Shown one piece after another: positions 9,009 to 23,994 of a stretch of DNA of 26,228 nt (its first letter is position 1; each line of letters opens with the position of its first letter). The position numbers and the translations under genes are program-made. Origin of the DNA: a virus; IMG/VR virus record IMGVR_UViG_3300037010_000905, positions 1-26,228 of that record; one strand, 5' to 3'. The notes under the pieces are model-generated. The model was not told where the DNA came from and ran no database searches. It saw only the letters and a program-made list of their open reading frames with translations.

Positions 9009-9313
9009 GTGTTCCGCCATCAGCTGCAATGTCAGAGATCAGAGAAGCCTACTGGAATGTCGCCAGGGCAAACCACCCCGATCTAAATCCTAACGGGGCA
9101 GGTATCATGTCCGCTGCTGCAGAAGCCTATGGCGTTCTATCCGACGATAAAAAGCGCATTCGTTACGACAGTTTGCTGGACTTTACATTGACTAAGTGCC
9201 CAGAATGTGACGGTCGCGGAACGACTTTGCGCGTGACTGGTTTCAGTAAAACGGGCGCTCATACTGAGAAATGTAAAGCCTGCAATGGAGAAGGCTATGG
9301 AAATAAAGGCTAA
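8981..9313 (+). CDS. DnaJ-like J-domain protein with two zinc-knuckle motifs
   Basis: This 110-residue product starts at GTG 8981, inside the end of the primase-helicase gene, after GGGGGA. Residues 4-66 are a J-domain (YYKVLGVPPSA, the invariant HPD at 32-34, and a closing helix with YD). Two CxxCxGxG-type motifs follow: CPECDGRG (73-80) and CKACNGEG (98-105), half of the four found in cellular DnaJ. It lacks the peptide-binding C-terminal domains. It should stimulate host DnaK, possibly recruiting it to remodel replication proteins, as lambda P and host DnaJ do; that role here is inference from its position. Confidence 0.85.
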   Translation: MQENYYKVLGVPPSAAMSEIREAYWNVARANHPDLNPNGAGIMSAAAEAYGVLSDDKKRIRYDSLLDFTLTKCPECDGRGTTLRVTGFSKTGAHTEKCKACNGEGYGNKG

Positions 9314-9689
9314 GTTTCTTTCTAAGATAAGAATTGAAGGAGATTGCTGGCTGTGGATCGGGGCACTAACAGACGACGGTTATGGGCTAGTGAACATAAA
9401 TGGAACAAGCAAGCGCGCTCATCGTGTTGTCTTCGAAGCGCAAGTTAGAAAACTTTCCTCAAAGGAACTCCTGTCTGCGACTTGCGGTAACAGGAACTGT
9501 GTCAACCCAGCCCATATGGAGATCATATCGCCAGAGAACCTTCGTTGTCGAAATCAAGCCGCGCACAATGCAACTCTTTCTCAACTGTGCTCCAAAGGGC
9601 ACAAGTTAGATGAGAATCGTAAGTGCCGGATATGCACCAATGACTACATGCGCGGCTACATGCGCCGAAGGCGCAAAGAAGCAAAATAG
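9297..9689 (+). CDS. Free-standing HNH endonuclease-like protein, first His missing
   Basis: This is a 130-residue product. ATG 9297 is preferred over ATG 9285 because GGAGAAGG lies directly upstream of it. It shows the phage HNH plan: an N-terminal W-x-W-x-G segment (CWLWIGA), HRVVFEA, then TCGNRNCVNPAHM with the Asn and second His. The position usually occupied by the first His, two residues before the Cys (HTC in many relatives), is Ala (SATC). A second Cys set near the C-terminus (CSKGH, CRICTNDY) could bind zinc, followed by a basic tail. Such genes behave as mobile intron-less homing nucleases. It overlaps the J-protein gene by 17 bases. It may be catalytically altered. Confidence 0.75.
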   Translation: MEIKAKFLSKIRIEGDCWLWIGALTDDGYGLVNINGTSKRAHRVVFEAQVRKLSSKELLSATCGNRNCVNPAHMEIISPENLRCRNQAAHNATLSQLCSKGHKLDENRKCRICTNDYMRGYMRRRRKEAK

Positions 9690-9691
9690 AG

Positions 9692-9721
9692 TTGGCGCGG
9701 AAACCAAACGAGCAGTATAAT
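9692..9721 (+). promoter_or_regulatory. Promoter of the ligase operon
   Basis: TTGGCG (9692-9697), 18 bases, then a perfect TATAAT (9716-9721). It lies directly after the HNH gene stop and 20 bases before ATG 9742, so the transcript would have a short leader of about 14 bases. The -35 differs from the TTGCGC class in this window. Confidence 0.6.
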
Positions 9722-9741
9722 ATATTAAGGGGCTGGGCACT

Positions 9742-9963
9742 ATGGATGAAGCAGTCAGAACCTCTCTGGTAGAAGTATCACGGAATATCCATGTATGTGA
9801 AATGAAACTTGAGCACCTTTCTCGGTCAATGGTTGGGAGGTCGCACCATGAAAAAGAAATAGCACAAGAACTCCAGCAGTGCCGCGCTCGTATAGACTGG
9901 CTGGTTCAGCCACACCCGCAGACAAACGCCCAAGTGAAAGAAGCACAATCAAAAGACTTGTAG
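9742..9963 (+). CDS. Small probable coiled-coil protein
   Basis: This 73-residue product starts at ATG 9742 after AAGGGG and directly downstream of the TATAAT promoter. The first 55 residues have a regular hydrophobic heptad-like pattern with many charged residues (VRTSLVEVSRNIHVCEMKLEHL, in part), which suggests one or two coiled-coil helices. The tail is polar. It precedes the ligase gene by ten bases. No family is recognised. Confidence 0.6.
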   Translation: MDEAVRTSLVEVSRNIHVCEMKLEHLSRSMVGRSHHEKEIAQELQQCRARIDWLVQPHPQTNAQVKEAQSKDL

Positions 9964-15882: not shown

Positions 15883-16356
15883 ATGCTGCTACAAAAGATT
15901 AACGAAGAGCGAAGTTACTCGTGCTGCGAAGTGATGCAACCCCCCGGCCACTACAGAGTTGATGTCGCCATCGCGCCCCGGATCAAGAATCTACCCCAAC
16001 CTGTGACAATGCACGTCTATAAGTGCCACAAGTGCTACCGTAAGATGCTGACGGAACACGACTTAAAGGTCTTAGAAGTGAATGGCGTGCAGGGACCGAC
16101 AGTGGTGTGGGCCAGGCACCACGGCATCAGAGCTACTAAGCTCCAAGGGCCTGGCAATCGTTCACTTCCTGACTACGAGTTTTGGATCAAAGGCGGAAGG
16201 CCAAAACTGATGGAGTTCAAACGCCCCGGAGAACTTCCAACTGCGCTTCAGGAAGACACCATTGCGAAGTTTGCTGCGGATGGCTACGTGGTTGAAATAC
16301 ATGATGACAAGTACTCTGCCATCGCTTCTCTGCAAAGGTCACTAGATGCTCGTTGA
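15883..16356 (+). CDS. VRR-NUC domain nuclease
   Basis: This 157-residue product starts at ATG 15883, nine bases after the previous stop. Residues 75-157 form the VRR-NUC domain of the PD-(D/E)xK group: G81-x-x-A-x-KL, PD (96-97) in SLPDYEF, E111-F-K113 in MEFKRPGE, Q123, then GYVVEIHDD. Residues 1-60 carry a separate part with CC (14-15) and CHKC (48-51), a probable zinc site. VRR-NUC proteins cut flaps or junctions and, in phages, often stand next to an SNF2-type helicase, as here: the next gene starts 11 bases before this one ends. Confidence 0.85.
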   Translation: MLLQKINEERSYSCCEVMQPPGHYRVDVAIAPRIKNLPQPVTMHVYKCHKCYRKMLTEHDLKVLEVNGVQGPTVVWARHHGIRATKLQGPGNRSLPDYEFWIKGGRPKLMEFKRPGELPTALQEDTIAKFAADGYVVEIHDDKYSAIASLQRSLDAR

Positions 16357-17821
16357 AACCGCCCGCCCCGCAGTTCCCTGGGTTCCTCACAATTACCAGA
16401 AGAATGTGATGAAGTTCATGTTAGAGAACTCGGCGGCGGGGCTGTTTCTGGACCCCGGACTGGGGAAAACATCATGCACCTTTGGGACGCTGAAAGTTCT
16501 TAAAGCAAAGGGCATGATGAAAGCCGCTTTGGTCATTGCACCACTACGAGTCTGCTACGCAGTATGGCCACGTGAGGCCGAAAAGTGGAGAGACTTTAAT
16601 GACATGAAGGTGGTAGTGCTGCATGGAAAAGACAAAGAAACCAACCTCTCAATTAAAGCGGACATATATGTCATTAACCCGGAAGGGCTGGAGTGGCTAT
16701 TCTCTGATCTGCGCTTTAAGAAATTGGCCCCAGATATTTTGGTGATTGACGAGAGTAGTCGGTTCAAGCACACCCAGACCAAGCGCTTCAAGTTTCTCAA
16801 ACCCTGGCTGAAAACATTCCGAAGGCGCTATATTCTTACTGGAACACCCGCCCCCAATGGACTACTGGATCTATTTGGGCAGATCTATATCCTAGATCTA
16901 GGAAAGTCCTTTGGTCCCTACATTACGAAGTTCAAGAACGACTTCTTTGATCCTTCGGGGTTTGGGGGTTTCACTTGGCGACCGAAGCCCAATACAGCAG
17001 AGCGCATCAACGAACTGCTCAAGCCGCTAACCATTCGGCTTGAGGATAAGGACTACTTAGAAATTCCGCAGATTGTGACTAGCCCAGAAACAGACATTAT
17101 CATTGACCTGCCTGACGAAGCTCGGAAAATCTATCATGACCTGGAAAAGGAAATGATAGCCAAGCTATCCGAGACCGAAGTTCTGACAGCATTGAGCGCG
17201 GCAACCGCAAGTATGAAATGCAGACAACTCGCGAATGGCTGCGTCTACAGACAACTAGAATACGCGCCTGCTATGAAGGAGGATAGGTGGCACTATGTCC
17301 ATGATGAAAAGATTAGGGCGCTTGAAGATTTTGTTAGTGAGCTTAATGGAAAACCTCTGCTTGTTGCCTACGAGTTCGTTCATGACATGGAAAGGATTCG
17401 TAAGGCGTTTCCAACCGCGACGTTCGTTGCAGACATCTCGGCATCCAAATTCGCTGATGTTGAGCGTAGATGGAACGCAGGGGAAATTGAAATGCTGGTG
17501 GGGCACCCCGCCTCAATTGGTCACGGACTCAATCTGCAGGAAAGCGGAAACCACATCATCTTCTATGGCCCCACCTGGGATCTGGAGTTATACGACCAGT
17601 TCATTAAGCGCATCCTGCGACAAGGTAACAAGAGTTCCCACGTCTTCGTGTATCATATCCTAGCAAGAAATACCGTGGATTTCGCTGTGATGCGAGCGCT
17701 GCGGGGAAAGGCAAAGGTTCAGAGCAGCCTACTTGCGTCGCTTAAGGACTACGCATCTGAAGTTGAGTTCAATCCAACCGGAAGCGAAGCGGCGCGTGCG
17801 ATCATGAAAAATCTAATTTAG
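16346..17821 (+). CDS. SNF2-type superfamily 2 helicase
   Basis: This 491-residue protein starts at ATG 16346, overlapping the VRR-NUC gene by 11 bases. Two RecA-like domains are visible. The first has the Q-like motif HNYQKNVM (15-22), Walker A LDPGLGKT (35-42), motif Ia APLRV, motif II DESS (135-138) and motif III LTGTPAPN (164-171). The second has the motif IV-V region GHPASIGHGLNLQ and motif VI QFIKRILRQG (both near residues 390-430). The DESS box and GTPAPN place it among Swi2/Snf2 proteins. It would translocate on duplex DNA, remodelling forks or recombination intermediates together with the coupled nuclease. Assignment is firm; the exact role is inferred. Confidence 0.93.
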   Translation: MLVETARPAVPWVPHNYQKNVMKFMLENSAAGLFLDPGLGKTSCTFGTLKVLKAKGMMKAALVIAPLRVCYAVWPREAEKWRDFNDMKVVVLHGKDKETNLSIKADIYVINPEGLEWLFSDLRFKKLAPDILVIDESSRFKHTQTKRFKFLKPWLKTFRRRYILTGTPAPNGLLDLFGQIYILDLGKSFGPYITKFKNDFFDPSGFGGFTWRPKPNTAERINELLKPLTIRLEDKDYLEIPQIVTSPETDIIIDLPDEARKIYHDLEKEMIAKLSETEVLTALSAATASMKCRQLANGCVYRQLEYAPAMKEDRWHYVHDEKIRALEDFVSELNGKPLLVAYEFVHDMERIRKAFPTATFVADISASKFADVERRWNAGEIEMLVGHPASIGHGLNLQESGNHIIFYGPTWDLELYDQFIKRILRQGNKSSHVFVYHILARNTVDFAVMRALRGKAKVQSSLLASLKDYASEVEFNPTGSEAARAIMKNLI

Positions 17822-18620: not shown

Positions 18621-19577
18621 ATGAAAACTGTGGTGTTCAGTTTCAACCCCCCCACACCCGACGGCTCGCTGGCAAATGCACGAACTGCGACTTTTATTGC
18701 CGACACGCTCGATGTTCCACTTATCTGTGATAAGAATATTGCGGATGTTGAGGCCGATGTCCTCATTCTTGTGGCGGGTGTTTTCATGTATTGTCGTTGT
18801 CTGCCGGAAGTTGGCGCCGCTGTAGAAAAAGCCAAGCGCGTCGTCTGGGCACAGAATGACTACACCATCAAGCCCCCGCTTGCAGACGGAACTGCCGAAA
18901 GTCCTTTCAGAAAAGCATTCAGGAACCGTAGGTCTGCGGGGTTGCCCGATGTTGATTTCTGGTCTACTATGCGCAAAGCTGGCGAGAAAACGCCGTTCAG
19001 TGCATGGGTGAACTGGAATCAGATGGCGTATGAAAACGCCATTAGCGACGAAGCTTTTGAGCTGAATCGTGAACATGCCGTTGAGTCGTTCATCTACTAT
19101 GGGGCGGATAGGCTGGGGCGCAAGGACTACTTTGACTGGTATTTCAATGGACAGAAGGCTCCATTGACTATCAGTTCTTTTAGCAAGTCAATGTCTCGCT
19201 ACGAAGACGACGCAGATATTATTCCTGCGTTCAAGCGCACGGAGTTCTTTGACCGATTGGGCCAGTATTCCGCCGGGCTATACCTGGAGGACAAACGCTC
19301 GCACGCCGAGTTCACCAGCCCTGCCACGCGGTTTTATGAGATGCTCCGCGTAGGCGTTGCCATGTTCTTTCAGCCACAGTCGGTGCCCATGTTAGCGAAG
19401 GCTGGGTTCGATGTTGCGCCCTTTGTGGCCACACCGGGGCAGCTACCAGACGCACTCAGCAGGGCCACAGAGGTAGCTCGCCAGCAAAGGGCGCTATGGG
19501 GTGGCAGGCCCTACATTCAGCACCTAAAGGAACAGCTTTTGCGAGAGCACGCACGCATCCAGGAGGGTGTCAAATGA
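18621..19577 (+). CDS. Putative glycosyltransferase-like protein (GT-B style)
   Basis: This is a 318-residue product. ATG 18621 is preceded by TGGAG; an in-frame GTG at 18615 adds two residues. The N-terminal half has Rossmann-like strands (KTVVFSFNPP, ADVLILVAGVF, KRVVWAQNDYT). The C-terminal half has a segment typical of GT-B nucleotide-sugar transferases: YSAGLYLEDKR, SPATRFYEMLRVGVAMFFQP, then a Gly/Pro loop. In the first half NxxTP-like sugar-donor loops are not obvious. It overlaps the next gene, of the thymine hypermodification family, by four bases. A role in adding a group to modified DNA bases is therefore likely. The donor and the reaction cannot be read; the glycosyltransferase call itself is moderate. 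Confidence 0.5.
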   Translation: MKTVVFSFNPPTPDGSLANARTATFIADTLDVPLICDKNIADVEADVLILVAGVFMYCRCLPEVGAAVEKAKRVVWAQNDYTIKPPLADGTAESPFRKAFRNRRSAGLPDVDFWSTMRKAGEKTPFSAWVNWNQMAYENAISDEAFELNREHAVESFIYYGADRLGRKDYFDWYFNGQKAPLTISSFSKSMSRYEDDADIIPAFKRTEFFDRLGQYSAGLYLEDKRSHAEFTSPATRFYEMLRVGVAMFFQPQSVPMLAKAGFDVAPFVATPGQLPDALSRATEVARQQRALWGGRPYIQHLKEQLLREHARIQEGVK

Positions 19578-20419
19578 GTAATCCTATGCGCGTAGACGAC
19601 CTGTGCTACTGGATCAAAGAGCGCCATTCCATCTACACCAAGAAGCAAGCCGGAGAACCGAAACCTTGGACCCAGGATCCAATCCTGCAAAGTTATCGGT
19701 TCTGCAATGTTTATAGAAATCTCGATACAGTGACAGAATGGATCCACACAAACTGGATGAACCGCAACGATCCTAATATGTTCGTGGCCATGACCATCGC
19801 ACGCTTCGTGAACTGGCCAGACACCCTTGAAGAAATGGGGTTTCCGTTGCCGTGGAATCCAGAGCGTTTTATATCCGTCATGCATGATCGCCGAAACAGG
19901 AATGAAAAGGTTTATAGTGGAGCCTACATTGTGTCCACCAATGGCCGAGCCATGGACAAGGCCGAGTATCTCGCCTTCTTCGTCATCCAGCCCATCTGGG
20001 ACAACCGCATTGATGTTCGCCCAAAGAAGGGGGACACTCTTGAGTCCTTCTACCAGCGGCTTATCAAATTCGATGGGCTGGGTAGCTTCATGGCCGGGCA
20101 GGTGATCGCCGATCTGAAGTACGACATGTTCAGCCCATTGTCAGAAGCAAGCGATGAATTCAGCTGGGCGACCAGTGGGCCTGGGAGTCGGAGAGGTATG
20201 AACATTGTGATCAATAAACCCCCCGAATCTCCTATTACTGAAAGGGTGTGGCGAGGGAACCTGGCAATCCTTCATCAAGCCGTTCAGGACAGACTCGCCC
20301 CCTTGGGTATGCCGCCACTCTCCGCACAAGACTTACAAAATTGCTTGTGTGAGTTCTCGAAATACACCAAGGTAGTCACCGGGACCGGCACACCCCGTTC
20401 CGGGTACCCAGGGAGGTGA
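19574..20419 (+). CDS. Thymine hypermodification protein (aGPT-Pplase / 5-hmdU DNA kinase helical family)
   Basis: This 281-residue product starts at ATG 19574 with AGGAGGG six bases upstream. It shows the conserved line of this family: PWTQDPILQSYRFCNVYR (31-48), a helix-hairpin-helix-like FDGLGSFMAGQVIADL (166-181), W199-to-GPGS (202-205) and RGMN, and the closing DLQNCLCEFSKY (253-264). The family was predicted from DNA-glycosylase-like helical folds and linked by genome context to phages that carry hypermodified 5-hydroxymethyluracil. It is expected to act on already polymerised DNA bearing hydroxymethyluracil. The neighbouring thymidylate synthase-family gene fits exactly. I do not see a separate P-loop kinase domain. 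Family assignment is good; the precise reaction is uncertain. Confidence 0.8.
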   Translation: MSNPMRVDDLCYWIKERHSIYTKKQAGEPKPWTQDPILQSYRFCNVYRNLDTVTEWIHTNWMNRNDPNMFVAMTIARFVNWPDTLEEMGFPLPWNPERFISVMHDRRNRNEKVYSGAYIVSTNGRAMDKAEYLAFFVIQPIWDNRIDVRPKKGDTLESFYQRLIKFDGLGSFMAGQVIADLKYDMFSPLSEASDEFSWATSGPGSRRGMNIVINKPPESPITERVWRGNLAILHQAVQDRLAPLGMPPLSAQDLQNCLCEFSKYTKVVTGTGTPRSGYPGR

Positions 20420-20422
20420 ATA

Positions 20423-21415
20423 GTGGAATTCCGCGCAAGAAATCTTACACAGGTGATGGCCGCGTGCCTTCCTAAACTTATAGAGGGAACCTCAGAGTCC
20501 TCGCGTAACGGGCCGGTGATCTTAATTGACGAGCCGGTGATCCTCACTTACGAGAAACCTTGCGAGCGGGTGATATTCTCCTCCACACGCGACGCCAACC
20601 CGTTCTTTCACCTAATGGAAGCTCTGTGGATGCTGGCGGGGCGCGAAGATGTTGAGTTCCCCACCAGGTTCAATTCAAAGTTCAGTCAGTTCTCAGACAA
20701 CGGTGTGATCTTCAATGGGGCCTACGGGTTCAGGTGGAGGACTTACTTTGATGTGGATCAGATTGAACTGGCTGTCAAAGAACTAATGGGGAATCCGGGG
20801 TCAAGACGCGTAGTCATCGGAATGTGGGACCCAATGTATGATCTTGGTTCCACGAGCAAAGACATTCCGTGCAACACGCATATCTATCTGAGCATCCGAG
20901 AGAACTCTGGACTACTGGATATGACAGTGTGCAACCGAAGCAACGACGCAGTCTGGGGGGCCTTTGGTGCAAACGCTGTTCACATGAGTATTCTTCAGGA
21001 ATACCTGGCGGCGGCAATCGGAGTGAAAGTCGGGCTCTATCGTCAGATCACAAATAACCTTCACTTCTACTCGGATACCTTCAGTGCAGAGAAACTATCA
21101 CGCATCGCGGCCGAGTGTGCATCAGATACGGCGTATTCACTAGGCCATATCCGCCCCTACCCACTGATCTCCATTTCTCCCGAATGCTGGATGACTGAGC
21201 TCCGCGCGTTCCTGGCAAATCCATCTACGAGGCCCGAGCACTACCACGATGGATTTTTCGCCAAAGTGGCGGCCCCCATGTTCGCCGCTTGGGAGGAACG
21301 GAAGGCTAATGGAAATACACCTAAAATGAACCGACTCATAGAAGGCATCGCTGCTTATGACTGGCGCGTGGCCTGCCAAGAATGGGTTATCCGTAGGAGT
21401 AAGAAAGATGTATAG
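20423..21415 (+). CDS. Thymidylate synthase-family enzyme, candidate dUMP hydroxymethylase
   Basis: This 330-residue protein starts at GTG 20423 after GGAGG. TS-fold landmarks are all visible: Y101 in AYGFRWR, the phosphate-binding R128-R129 (SRRVVIGMWDP), catalytic C150 (IPCNTHIY), R172-S173 and D175 (CNRSNDAVWG), N184, and H214/Y216 (NLHFYSD). N184 sits where thymidylate synthase has the Asn that selects dUMP and where T4 dCMP hydroxymethylase has Asp, so dUMP is the likely substrate. The usual PCHxxxQ is PCNTHIY, and the Trp that closes the TS active site seems absent from the loop before Y101. Coupled to a hypermodification gene, it more likely makes 5-hydroxymethyl-dUMP than dTMP; TS activity is not excluded. 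Confidence 0.85.
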   Translation: MEFRARNLTQVMAACLPKLIEGTSESSRNGPVILIDEPVILTYEKPCERVIFSSTRDANPFFHLMEALWMLAGREDVEFPTRFNSKFSQFSDNGVIFNGAYGFRWRTYFDVDQIELAVKELMGNPGSRRVVIGMWDPMYDLGSTSKDIPCNTHIYLSIRENSGLLDMTVCNRSNDAVWGAFGANAVHMSILQEYLAAAIGVKVGLYRQITNNLHFYSDTFSAEKLSRIAAECASDTAYSLGHIRPYPLISISPECWMTELRAFLANPSTRPEHYHDGFFAKVAAPMFAAWEERKANGNTPKMNRLIEGIAAYDWRVACQEWVIRRSKKDV

Positions 21416-21911
21416 AAGACTGAGGTTCCTCTATGGCGGGCTTGCCACCAAACGATTCCACACCCTGCGGACCATCCAGGAGAACACCGTCGGACATCAC
21501 TCTTGCGGAGTGGCGCTACTTGTTGCGGAGTTGTCAGAATCAACGCCTCGGGCAGAACTTCTACTCGCGTGCTTACGGCACGACCTCGCCGAACACAAAT
21601 CCGGTGACTCTCCTGCGCCTGCCAAGCGTGAGGGCGGCTTCGGTGAACTTCTGAATGATTACGAGTCCAAGCTCCTAGAAGAGCAGTGGGGCAAGGCGGG
21701 GCTGACTAGCGATGAGTTCAGAATCTTCAAGATTGCTGATTGCTTGGATGGCATCATGTTCTGCATCAGTGAGCGCACCATGGGCAACCGTCATCTTGAT
21801 GGGGCCTACAGGAATTTCCGTTCCTACATTGAGGAACTGCAACCGACTAATCATGAGAGTTACATCATCGGGGTCGTATGCGCCCCTTGGAGGGAACTTG
21901 TCAATGGGTAG
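21408..21911 (+). CDS. HD-domain phosphohydrolase, YfbR-like 5'-deoxynucleotidase candidate
   Basis: This is a 167-residue product. ATG 21408 was chosen because AGGAG (21395-21399) lies eight bases upstream; the longer frame from 21357 is inside the previous gene. Metal ligands of the HD family are visible: H30-H31, the H58-D59 pair in CLRHDLAEH with E62, and the GDSPAP segment (66-71) common in YfbR-like dNMP hydrolases. A later acidic residue (KIADCLD) supplies the final ligand. Such enzymes remove phosphate from deoxynucleoside monophosphates. Next to a dUMP-using enzyme it could lower a competing nucleotide such as dTMP, but the substrate is not readable. Confidence 0.75.
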   Translation: MYRRLRFLYGGLATKRFHTLRTIQENTVGHHSCGVALLVAELSESTPRAELLLACLRHDLAEHKSGDSPAPAKREGGFGELLNDYESKLLEEQWGKAGLTSDEFRIFKIADCLDGIMFCISERTMGNRHLDGAYRNFRSYIEELQPTNHESYIIGVVCAPWRELVNG

Positions 21912-22396: not shown

Positions 22397-22702
22397 CTAC
22401 CTGTTCTGGCAGACCACGGCAAAGGTGCGCTCTGTTACGCGCCCCCCTGCTGTCGTAATCTGGCATGTGACAAAGTATGTTACGCCCGCTGTTCCGCCCG
22501 AGATCCAAGTCGTTGCATCCGTGGCTCCCTTGGAGTTCGCGCCCAGCGTCAATCCGACTGGGGTGGCAGACCACGCCACAGAAGCGATGGTGTCCACGCC
22601 GGATTCAAGGTACAGGCTCCAGTCAACCGTGTAATCCAAATTCTCGGAAGGATCTTTTGTGATGCTGGGCATAGAGCCATTCCAGGTTCCGGTAAAGCTC
22701 AT
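22397..22702 (-). CDS. Small virion protein, possible fibre-tail adaptor type
   Basis: This 101-residue product starts at 22702 with AGGAG seven bases upstream on the - strand, and forms ATGA with the preceding gene's stop. It is beta-rich with an Ig-like look: LDYTVDWSLYL, SVAWSATPVGLTLG, TTWISGGTAGVTYFVTCQI, and RTFAVVC. The order (DYxVDWS, SxxW, WxSGGTAG, TTxxGR) resembles small phage structural proteins that I associate with the neck or tail-fibre adaptor region. It is the last gene of the - strand virion operon. Confidence 0.6.
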   Translation of the reverse strand: MSFTGTWNGSMPSITKDPSENLDYTVDWSLYLESGVDTIASVAWSATPVGLTLGANSKGATDATTWISGGTAGVTYFVTCQITTAGGRVTERTFAVVCQNR

Positions 22703-23994
22703 GACAGTCTCCTATTTTCGTATGGGACATAGACACGCCTAACTTCAGACTCTACGGGTGTGACCCTGATATCCGCTGGCACCATGATACTACGGTTCTC
22801 CGCCTCTACGGTAACTGTTCTTGTTGAATCATGAAAACTAGTCGTATAGAACCGGTCCGCTGCGCCTGCTCCGGTCGCCCCGCCTTGTGCTGCTGGCGAC
22901 AGCGCAATCTGATTAAGAGCAGCGCCGCTCCCACAAGCTCCGCCAACTACTGAAGGAGCCAGCGCCTTTGAGAACGACGCTGCTCCATTCCCGACAGCTC
23001 CCCCACTCAGGGGCGGGGCCATAAGCCTGCCGAAGATCGCTGATCCAGACGCTGTGGCCCCGCCCGACGCTGTCGTGGCCAACGACATAGAATAGACTGC
23101 CGAGCCAGAGCCACTTGCTCCGCCTGAGCCTATGAACGAGTCGTTGAGCGATGAGGTCTGCGAGACCGTTGCTGCGCCAGATCCTACTCCGCCTCCTGAG
23201 GTCGTAGGGGCCAGCGATATTGAGTAAACAGCGGAGCCTGCTCCAGAACCTCCGCCTGAGATGACGGGAGACATTGCTACTGAGTAGACGGCAGAACCAG
23301 ATCCGAGCGAGCCACCAGCTGCGAATGGCTGTAACGACATAGAATAGACTGCCGAGCCAGATCCTACTCCGCCTCCTGAGACCGTGGGGGCCAGGGCCAG
23401 CGTAGCAGGGGCAAGCCCGCTGCCCATACCACCGCCAGAGGCACTCGTGGATAGCGCAAGGTTAGCTTGGGCGCTACCGCCTGCCAGCGCCCCGCCAAGG
23501 CTCCCAGGGGCCATACTTATGGAAGCAGTGCCGGCTCCTGAGCCACTTGCCCCACCCACTCCGACAAATACATCATTAAGCGCTGAGATCTGCGATACCG
23601 TTGCAGAGCCAGAACCCAAGCCGCCGCCGCTGATAATGGAAAAGAGTGCTATGGCCGCTGTCGCCAGACCCGCGCCAAGCGCACCCCCCAGTCCAACTCG
23701 TACTTCGCCCTTTAGAGCAGCGCCCGTGCCCACTGCGCCGCCAAGAGCAGTGGTGACTAAGGAGATCTGATATGACCCGGCACCAGAACCAGCCGCACCT
23801 CCGACAGAGTCAGGGGACATAGCCTTTGAAAAAGTTGCTAGGCCCGTTCCAACTGCTCCGCCAGATCCAGTGAACGAGTCATTCCTAGCAACGGTCGTGA
23901 TTACAGTTGCAGCTCCAGACCCGCTGGCACCACCTGTTCCTGTGAAGGAGTCAGCGATACCAGTGGGTGTTTGCAGTGCGAGTAAGAGGCCCAT
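22699..23994 (-). CDS. Gly/Ser/Ala-rich 18-repeat virion protein
   Basis: This is a 431-residue protein with GGAG upstream of its ATG (23994). Residues 13-379 are about 18 tandem repeats of 18-25 residues built on SGGGxGSGSAVYSMSLxP, with small changes. Residues 380-431 form a separate non-repetitive end, with TVTVEAENRSIMVPADIR and RRVYVPYENRRL. The regular Gly-Gly-x-Gly-Ser-Gly turns and short strands suggest an elongated stacked fold, as in a fibre shaft or a glycine-rich adhesin. It has no cleavable signal. Placement among virion genes supports a structural role, possibly host contact. No named family is recognised with certainty. Confidence 0.7.
   Translation of the reverse strand: MGLLLALQTPTGIADSFTGTGGASGSGAATVITTVARNDSFTGSGGAVGTGLATFSKAMSPDSVGGAAGSGAGSYQISLVTTALGGAVGTGAALKGEVRVGLGGALGAGLATAAIALFSIISGGGLGSGSATVSQISALNDVFVGVGGASGSGAGTASISMAPGSLGGALAGGSAQANLALSTSASGGGMGSGLAPATLALAPTVSGGGVGSGSAVYSMSLQPFAAGGSLGSGSAVYSVAMSPVISGGGSGAGSAVYSISLAPTTSGGGVGSGAATVSQTSSLNDSFIGSGGASGSGSAVYSMSLATTASGGATASGSAIFGRLMAPPLSGGAVGNGAASFSKALAPSVVGGACGSGAALNQIALSPAAQGGATGAGAADRFYTTSFHDSTRTVTVEAENRSIMVPADIRVTPVESEVRRVYVPYENRRLS
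22863..23958 (-). repeat. Tandem repeat tract coding for the Gly-rich repeats
   Basis: About 18 copies of a 54-75 base unit, visible in DNA as well as protein. A 24-base stretch around ATAGAATAGACTGCCGAGCC occurs at about 23088 and again at about 23339. CCAGATCCTACTCCGCCTCC occurs at about 23178 and 23359. The high DNA identity between some units indicates recent duplication or recombination between copies. Confidence 0.75.

Follow-up and report, generated by a model that had tools for sequence, protein, structure and literature searches.

In phages of the M6 type, a kinase phosphorylates 5-hydroxymethyl-deoxyuridine (5-hmdU) in DNA and other groups are then added (PMC6449724), and a sugar on 5-hydroxymethyluracil (5-hmU), known as 'base J' in trypanosomes, was unreported in phages up to a 2019 paper. 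The beta-glucosyltransferase (BGT) of phage T4 glucosylates 5-hmU in vitro and so gives base J, in duplex DNA only if 5-hmU is mispaired with G (PMC4111573), and TAGT is a known family of DNA-base glycosyltransferases, of the GT-A fold by a published model (PMC13216743). Here we describe a 26,228-nt stretch of viral DNA, hereafter the window, which is an entire IMG/VR fragment (IMGVR_UViG_3300037010_000905) and carries at 18621-21911 four same-strand genes for a glycosyltransferase (GT), a protein of the HMUDK_hel family, a homologue of thymidylate synthase (TS) and an HD-type nucleotidase. We consider it probable that these genes constitute a minimal pathway for 5-hmdU glycosylation, i.e. a predicted branch of phage thymine hypermodification that adds sugar without a kinase and extends beyond the window.

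Judging by its AlphaFold2 model, the protein that the first-pass annotation had called GT-like is a genuine glycosyltransferase of the GT-B fold. The model, built on 40 homologues, reached a pLDDT of 94.5 and a pTM of 0.91, and T4 BGT ranked first when it was searched against the PDB by Foldseek (E 1.9e-9). VIA-align superposed it on T4 BGT over 293 of the 318 residues (Z 21.1, rmsd 3.5), with T4 BGT at ranks 1-4 and the T4 alpha-glucosyltransferase (AGT) at ranks 7-10 (Z 16.9); the top cellular enzyme, SenB, scored 17.1. Five T4 BGT residues that we take to bind UDP-glucose (R191, R195, D258, R269 and E272) correspond to R164, R167, D224, R237 and E240 of GT in all three alignment modes, and these five, together with D80, are invariant across the 40 homologues. 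The enzyme probably transfers a sugar onto 5-hmdU in DNA, with both the sugar and the acceptor putative. A kinship of GT with TAGT was rejected, as profile comparison gave no detectable similarity, and the TAGT model PF20691 had no match in the window or its relatives; PF09198, the T4 BGT family model, likewise had none there at E 1. Pfam searches on all 40 homologues yielded weak Glyco_trans_1_2 matches in five and nothing else, and PDB sequence searches with the GT profile and the HMUDK_hel profile returned chance matches only. Distant relatives of the GT C-terminal half were seen in two T4-like phages, Cronobacter phage S13 (L031:8704-9555, surveyed loci being given by number and coordinates) and Citrobacter phage Ci1 (L032:8608-9537), where the gene sits between uvsY and uvsW and HMUDK_hel was not noted nearby.

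In thymidylate synthases, the tryptophan pair W80 and W83 is important, and an Asn or Asp decides between uracil and cytosine. The TS homologue of the window matched Thymidylat_synt (PF00303, E 1.4e-17) and phrog_5131 (E 1e-111) and is 45% identical to M6 gp58, and its best PDB relatives were CMP 5-hydroxymethylases at E 2.6e-17, with thymidylate synthases behind at E 6.5e-9. An alignment of 80 rows conserves C150 (catalytic), R172, D175 and N184 (the dUMP-type Asn) throughout and has no Trp in any row at the positions of W80 and W83. With hydroxymethylases nearest and both C150 and N184 kept, the sequence makes it likely that, as first proposed, this protein is the source of 5-hydroxymethyl-deoxyuridine monophosphate (5-hmdUMP), namely a predicted dUMP 5-hydroxymethylase. 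A locus serving nucleotide metabolism only, with a true thymidylate synthase, an HD pool regulator and plain thymine, would agree with a TS fold and catalytic residues common to thymidylate synthases; the nearer hydroxymethylases, the loss of both conserved active-site Trp residues and the inclusion in the operon of PF18723, a family of 5-hmdU DNA systems, render it highly improbable. The HD protein matched the YfbR-like PF12917 (E 2.7e-9, 37.4 bits against a gathering cut-off of 25.9) and HD PF01966 (24.7 bits, cut-off 22), with the HD residues visible in LLACLRHDLAEH; its true start may lie nearer 21408, and it probably trims competing deoxynucleoside monophosphate pools.

HMUDK_hel was assigned through PF18723 (E 3.5e-44, 151.7 bits against a gathering cut-off of 25), and its AlphaFold2 model has a pLDDT of 95.1. 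The top PDB match of the model was the 5-PmdU glycinyltransferase PUGT of phage PaMx11 (Z 11.7), followed at Z ~10 by the DUF2419 queuine salvage enzyme and by helix-hairpin-helix DNA glycosylases. Because of these nearest folds, HMUDK_hel and the amino-acid transferase are probably paralogues, with HMUDK_hel built on a scaffold of the kind that flips bases, and we propose that it finds and flips 5-hmU for a catalytic partner. The label 'aGPT-Pplase' in the first-pass annotation is misleading, in that a pyrophosphorylase function is unneeded and the model folds like a helix-hairpin-helix DNA glycosylase. In one surveyed locus (L056:9105-10831), a nucleoside-hydrolase-like gene (IU_nuc_hydro) stands immediately ahead of HMUDK_hel.

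The neighbourhoods of both proteins were surveyed in IMG/VR from the best 80 of 403 confirmed HMUDK_hel relatives, at the sensitivity used, plus 52 GT relatives; cluster contents were determined by searching every open reading frame with profiles, yielding 77 non-redundant HMUDK_hel clusters. This sample is biased toward relatives of the window, and the HMUDK_hel-only subset comprises 51 clusters. Among the 77 clusters, the partner was GT in 31, TAGT in 16 and an amino-acid transferase in 8, never two together, and the amino-acid transferase and GT co-occurred in none of the 39 clusters having either. A kinase was present in all eight amino-acid-transferase clusters and in none of the 16 with TAGT (p 2.5e-5). 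In the subset, GT and TAGT were again never together, which is a weaker test (p 0.083), and the lack of a kinase beside TAGT was still strong (p 4.5e-5). The gene directly upstream of HMUDK_hel, where recognised, encoded GT (10), TAGT (10), a kinase (6) or a radical-SAM protein (4), and seven of the 77 clusters had no recognised partner. The pairing of GT and HMUDK_hel, earlier regarded as unusual, is thus not so: it was found in 31 of the 77 sampled clusters, half of them kinase-less, and the count rises to 47 with the 16 that hold the unrelated TAGT, usually in the same place. Viewed from GT, 36 non-redundant clusters contained HMUDK_hel in 30 and TS in 27, and the recurrent company of GT and HMUDK_hel excludes a chance grouping.

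The kinase was gained or lost about four times along the GT tree, in which the group of the window is one of several lineages without it. A second architecture, in the order HMUDK_hel, GT, P-loop kinase, TS and HD, was seen in a 69,180-base contig with a 127-base terminal repeat (L011:8229-13566) and in other L13x-L14x loci, with a radical-SAM/SPASM gene too in eight clusters; glycosylation and phosphate chemistry coexist there, which makes the product difficult to predict. Between HMUDK_hel and GT, the L011 contig has a GIY-YIG gene, likely a homing endonuclease (9157-9771), and a close relative of the window (L009:4617-5070) has about 450 bases, a possible insertion, where the two genes overlap in the window.

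That the window lacks a kinase and an amino-acid transferase, as had been noted, holds as well for a related genome, G001, a 60,490-base contig with ~86-94% identity to the window over most of its length and with the same cluster. The ends of G001 share a 247-base overlap, mismatched at 11 positions (95.5%), inside one DUF3310 gene, and the window runs across the junction; G001 therefore appears to be a complete genome, with mixed strains behind its assembly, as far as an inexact 95.5% terminal overlap indicates. By tblastn, the M6 and L011 kinases found nothing in G001, and M6 gp51 (the amino-acid transferase, aGPT-Pplase2/AADT) found nothing in the window or G001. A kinase profile had no match in G001 or other kinase-less relatives, save a 9.6-bit scrap in the L126 contig; in a control it recovered held-out kinases in 6 of 7 records and missed the divergent kinase of Escherichia phage EP_H11, so that profile absence alone is no proof. 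This gap is filled by a Walker-A scan of G001, in which the plausible P-loop proteins were terminase, helicase and DUF5906 only, with no kinase. The idea that a kinase simply lies outside the fragment was dropped after this search. G001 also encodes two pentapeptide-repeat proteins (L020:14142-14888 and 16193-16876), upstream of the stretch common to the window.

These results bear on a phosphate route of the M6/ViI type, in which a kinase from elsewhere would act, an amino-acid-derived group would be attached to 5-hmdU, and GT would decorate it later. HMUDK_hel is named for the 5-hmdU kinase and adjoins a kinase in M6 and SN1, TS and HD are common to the window and M6, and a kinase is present in 15 of the 31 GT clusters; we nevertheless find this route quite unlikely, as tblastn, profile and Walker-A searches all failed to reveal its enzymes in the ~90% identical, complete-looking 60.5 kb genome and the amino-acid transferase never accompanies GT in the survey.

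Several observations weigh against the glycosylation pathway. GT had no match in Pfam, and a PHROGs search was likewise empty; by sequence, hhalign ties it only weakly to T4 BGT, through the C-terminal halves alone (E 7.8e-4, probability 25%), and T4 BGT D100, presumably the catalytic base, aligned with the invariant D80 in just one of the three modes. The fold match of HMUDK_hel is moderate at Z 11.7, a range in which all-helical models easily reach middling values. HMUDK_hel was not detected in six of the 36 GT clusters, where GT mostly lies near the contig or locus end, no fusion of GT to HMUDK_hel was found, and in the 15 kinase-bearing clusters GT works beside phosphate chemistry. GT could also have a non-DNA acceptor, for instance a small molecule, a structural protein of the phage or the lipopolysaccharide of its host, and just happen to sit in the operon, the DNA then containing 5-hmdU or dT. 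GT-B folds are generic, with bacterial small-molecule and protein glycosyltransferases at Z 15-17, and GT matches no curated DNA-glycosyltransferase family, yet such an acceptor appears unlikely, since the T4 DNA glucosyltransferases hold the leading ranks (BGT at 21.1 against 17.1 for the best cellular enzyme), GT is linked to HMUDK_hel and TS across the survey and overlaps HMUDK_hel in the window, and TAGT occupies the slot of GT in sister loci.

In the glycosylation pathway that we favour, the TS homologue would turn dUMP into 5-hmdUMP, as its residues and nearest relatives suggest, and the HD nucleotidase would deplete competing nucleotide pools; 5-hmdUMP would then be converted to the triphosphate and polymerised, as is established for 5-hmdU phages. 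After replication, the GT-B enzyme would place the sugar of a nucleotide-sugar on the 5-CH2OH of 5-hmdU in DNA, a step for which models and alignments point to the fold and donor site, and the operon to the acceptor. HMUDK_hel, with its DNA-glycosylase fold, may locate the 5-hmU:A base and flip it for the catalytic partner, and such a helper would be useful because T4 BGT acts on duplex 5-hmU only opposite G. As the hydroxyl itself would be the sugar acceptor, phosphate activation would be unneeded, in keeping with the absence of a kinase and an amino-acid transferase; the same kinase-free route would also fit the TAGT clusters. The parsimonious product is an O-glycosylated, base-J-like 5-hmdU. 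The suggestion that the final base may be new stands for phages as far as checked, a literature search thin on subscription papers having found no later report of a base-J-like phage thymine; as chemistry, a base-J-like product is an idea already known. A DNA glycosyltransferase taking normal 5-hmU:A pairs would help to map 5-hmU, because T4 BGT accepts it in duplexes only when mispaired with G (PMC4111573), and a sugar on thymine is relevant to host defences by excision of modified thymine, e.g. Brig2 (PMC13216743).

A wider proposal is tentative, and we hold it possible rather than probable as a whole: that GT-B enzymes of a widespread and so far undescribed family glycosylate phage DNA to give glycosyl-5-hmdU, a thymine akin to base J, and that HMUDK_hel, instead of being part of a kinase, is an adaptor of general use, which reads 5-hmU, flips the base and can team up with any of several partners (GT-B, TAGT, kinase and radical-SAM). 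HMUDK_hel would thereby be given a testable job, that of offering 5-hmU to various catalytic partners.

The four genes form a tight operon, with neighbours overlapping or almost abutting (Table 1). The cluster had been placed correctly in the first-pass annotation, three of its members being confirmed by family matches and GT by its model, and its reading as a thymine-modification operon is supported. GT starts at an ATG with an in-frame GTG 6 nt 5' of it, the GT and HMUDK_hel genes overlap by 4 nt (ATGA) with AGGAGGG, a strong ribosome-binding site, immediately 5', and the GTG start codon of TS has GGGAGGTG ahead of it. The surroundings encode DNA polymerase A, an SNF2 helicase, a Cas4-like nuclease and a DUF3310 protein. 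Elsewhere in the window are an HNH-like gene (9285-9689), likely a homing endonuclease, and, near tail-like genes, a gene on the minus strand (22699-23994) for a 431-aa Gly/Ala/Ser-rich protein with repeated SGGGxGSGSA-like units, for which no DNA-level tandem repeat was detected.

Table 1. Genes of the predicted 5-hmdU glycosylation cluster in the window
Gene product	Position	Strand	Length and basis of assignment
GT, GT-B glycosyltransferase, predicted 5-hmdU DNA glycosyltransferase	18621..19577	+	318 aa; AlphaFold2 model, T4 BGT-like fold
HMUDK_hel (aGPT-Pplase1), predicted 5-hmU-reading, base-flipping partner	19574..20419	+	281 aa; PF18723, AlphaFold2 model
Thymidylate-synthase-family enzyme, predicted dUMP 5-hydroxymethylase	20423..21415	+	330 aa; PF00303, phrog_5131, conserved residues
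YfbR-like HD 5'-deoxynucleotidase	21357..21911	+	at most 184 aa; PF12917, PF01966

Compared with known systems, the cluster shares HMUDK_hel, TS and HD, in the same order, with the M6/YuA-type phages (5-NedU), whereas upstream of HMUDK_hel M6 has a kinase and the window has GT, and no P-loop kinase, amino-acid transferase, pyridoxal phosphate (PLP) enzyme or M6-type radical-SAM enzyme was detected. The TAGT-HMUDK_hel-TS clusters (LuckyBarnes, L051, L055, L087 and L104) resemble it in having a glycosyltransferase directly upstream of HMUDK_hel and no kinase, the difference being that TAGT is GT-A and the GT of the window GT-B, without detectable sequence similarity; in the cultured Brevibacterium phage LuckyBarnes (L166:837-4852), TS, two TAGT and HMUDK_hel genes overlap head-to-tail with no kinase annotated nearby. 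In the cultured Escherichia phages EP_H11 and IME392, a single gene run holds HMUDK_hel, TS, HD and a homologue of GT (23%); unlike the window, these phages have a PIG-L-type deacetylase as well as a P-loop kinase near GT. In EP_H11 (L030:7301-13616), genes for a PIG-L-type deacetylase, an unknown protein, GT, HMUDK_hel, a kinase, TS and HD stand in a row, which points to thymine bearing an amino-sugar. YerA41, with its ~1 kDa thymidine substitution, was set aside as a precedent, its genes not being reported comparably, and so was SP-15 as a parallel, whose glucosylated dihydroxypentyluracil goes with a different gene set and with ThyX-type enzymes.

With the base J pathway of kinetoplastids (JBP1/2 and JGT) the cluster shares its predicted product, 5-hmU that carries an O-linked sugar in DNA, but here the TS homologue would make 5-hmU at the nucleotide level, whereas there a TET/JBP dioxygenase acts on DNA; Tet_JBP (PF12851) had no match in the window or its relative, and control genomes gave no match either. 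In T4, gene 42, a TS-family hydroxymethylase, adjoins the GT-B enzyme BGT, just as the TS homologue and a GT-B enzyme are joined in the window cluster, with the same fold and five aligned donor-site residues; the cluster differs in its base, predicted to be uracil and not cytosine as the Asn is kept, in its extra HMUDK_hel and in having no PF09198 match. The logic is that of T4, i.e. hydroxymethylate the nucleotide, polymerise it and glycosylate it, shifted from cytosine to uracil and joined by an accessory protein of thymine hypermodification.

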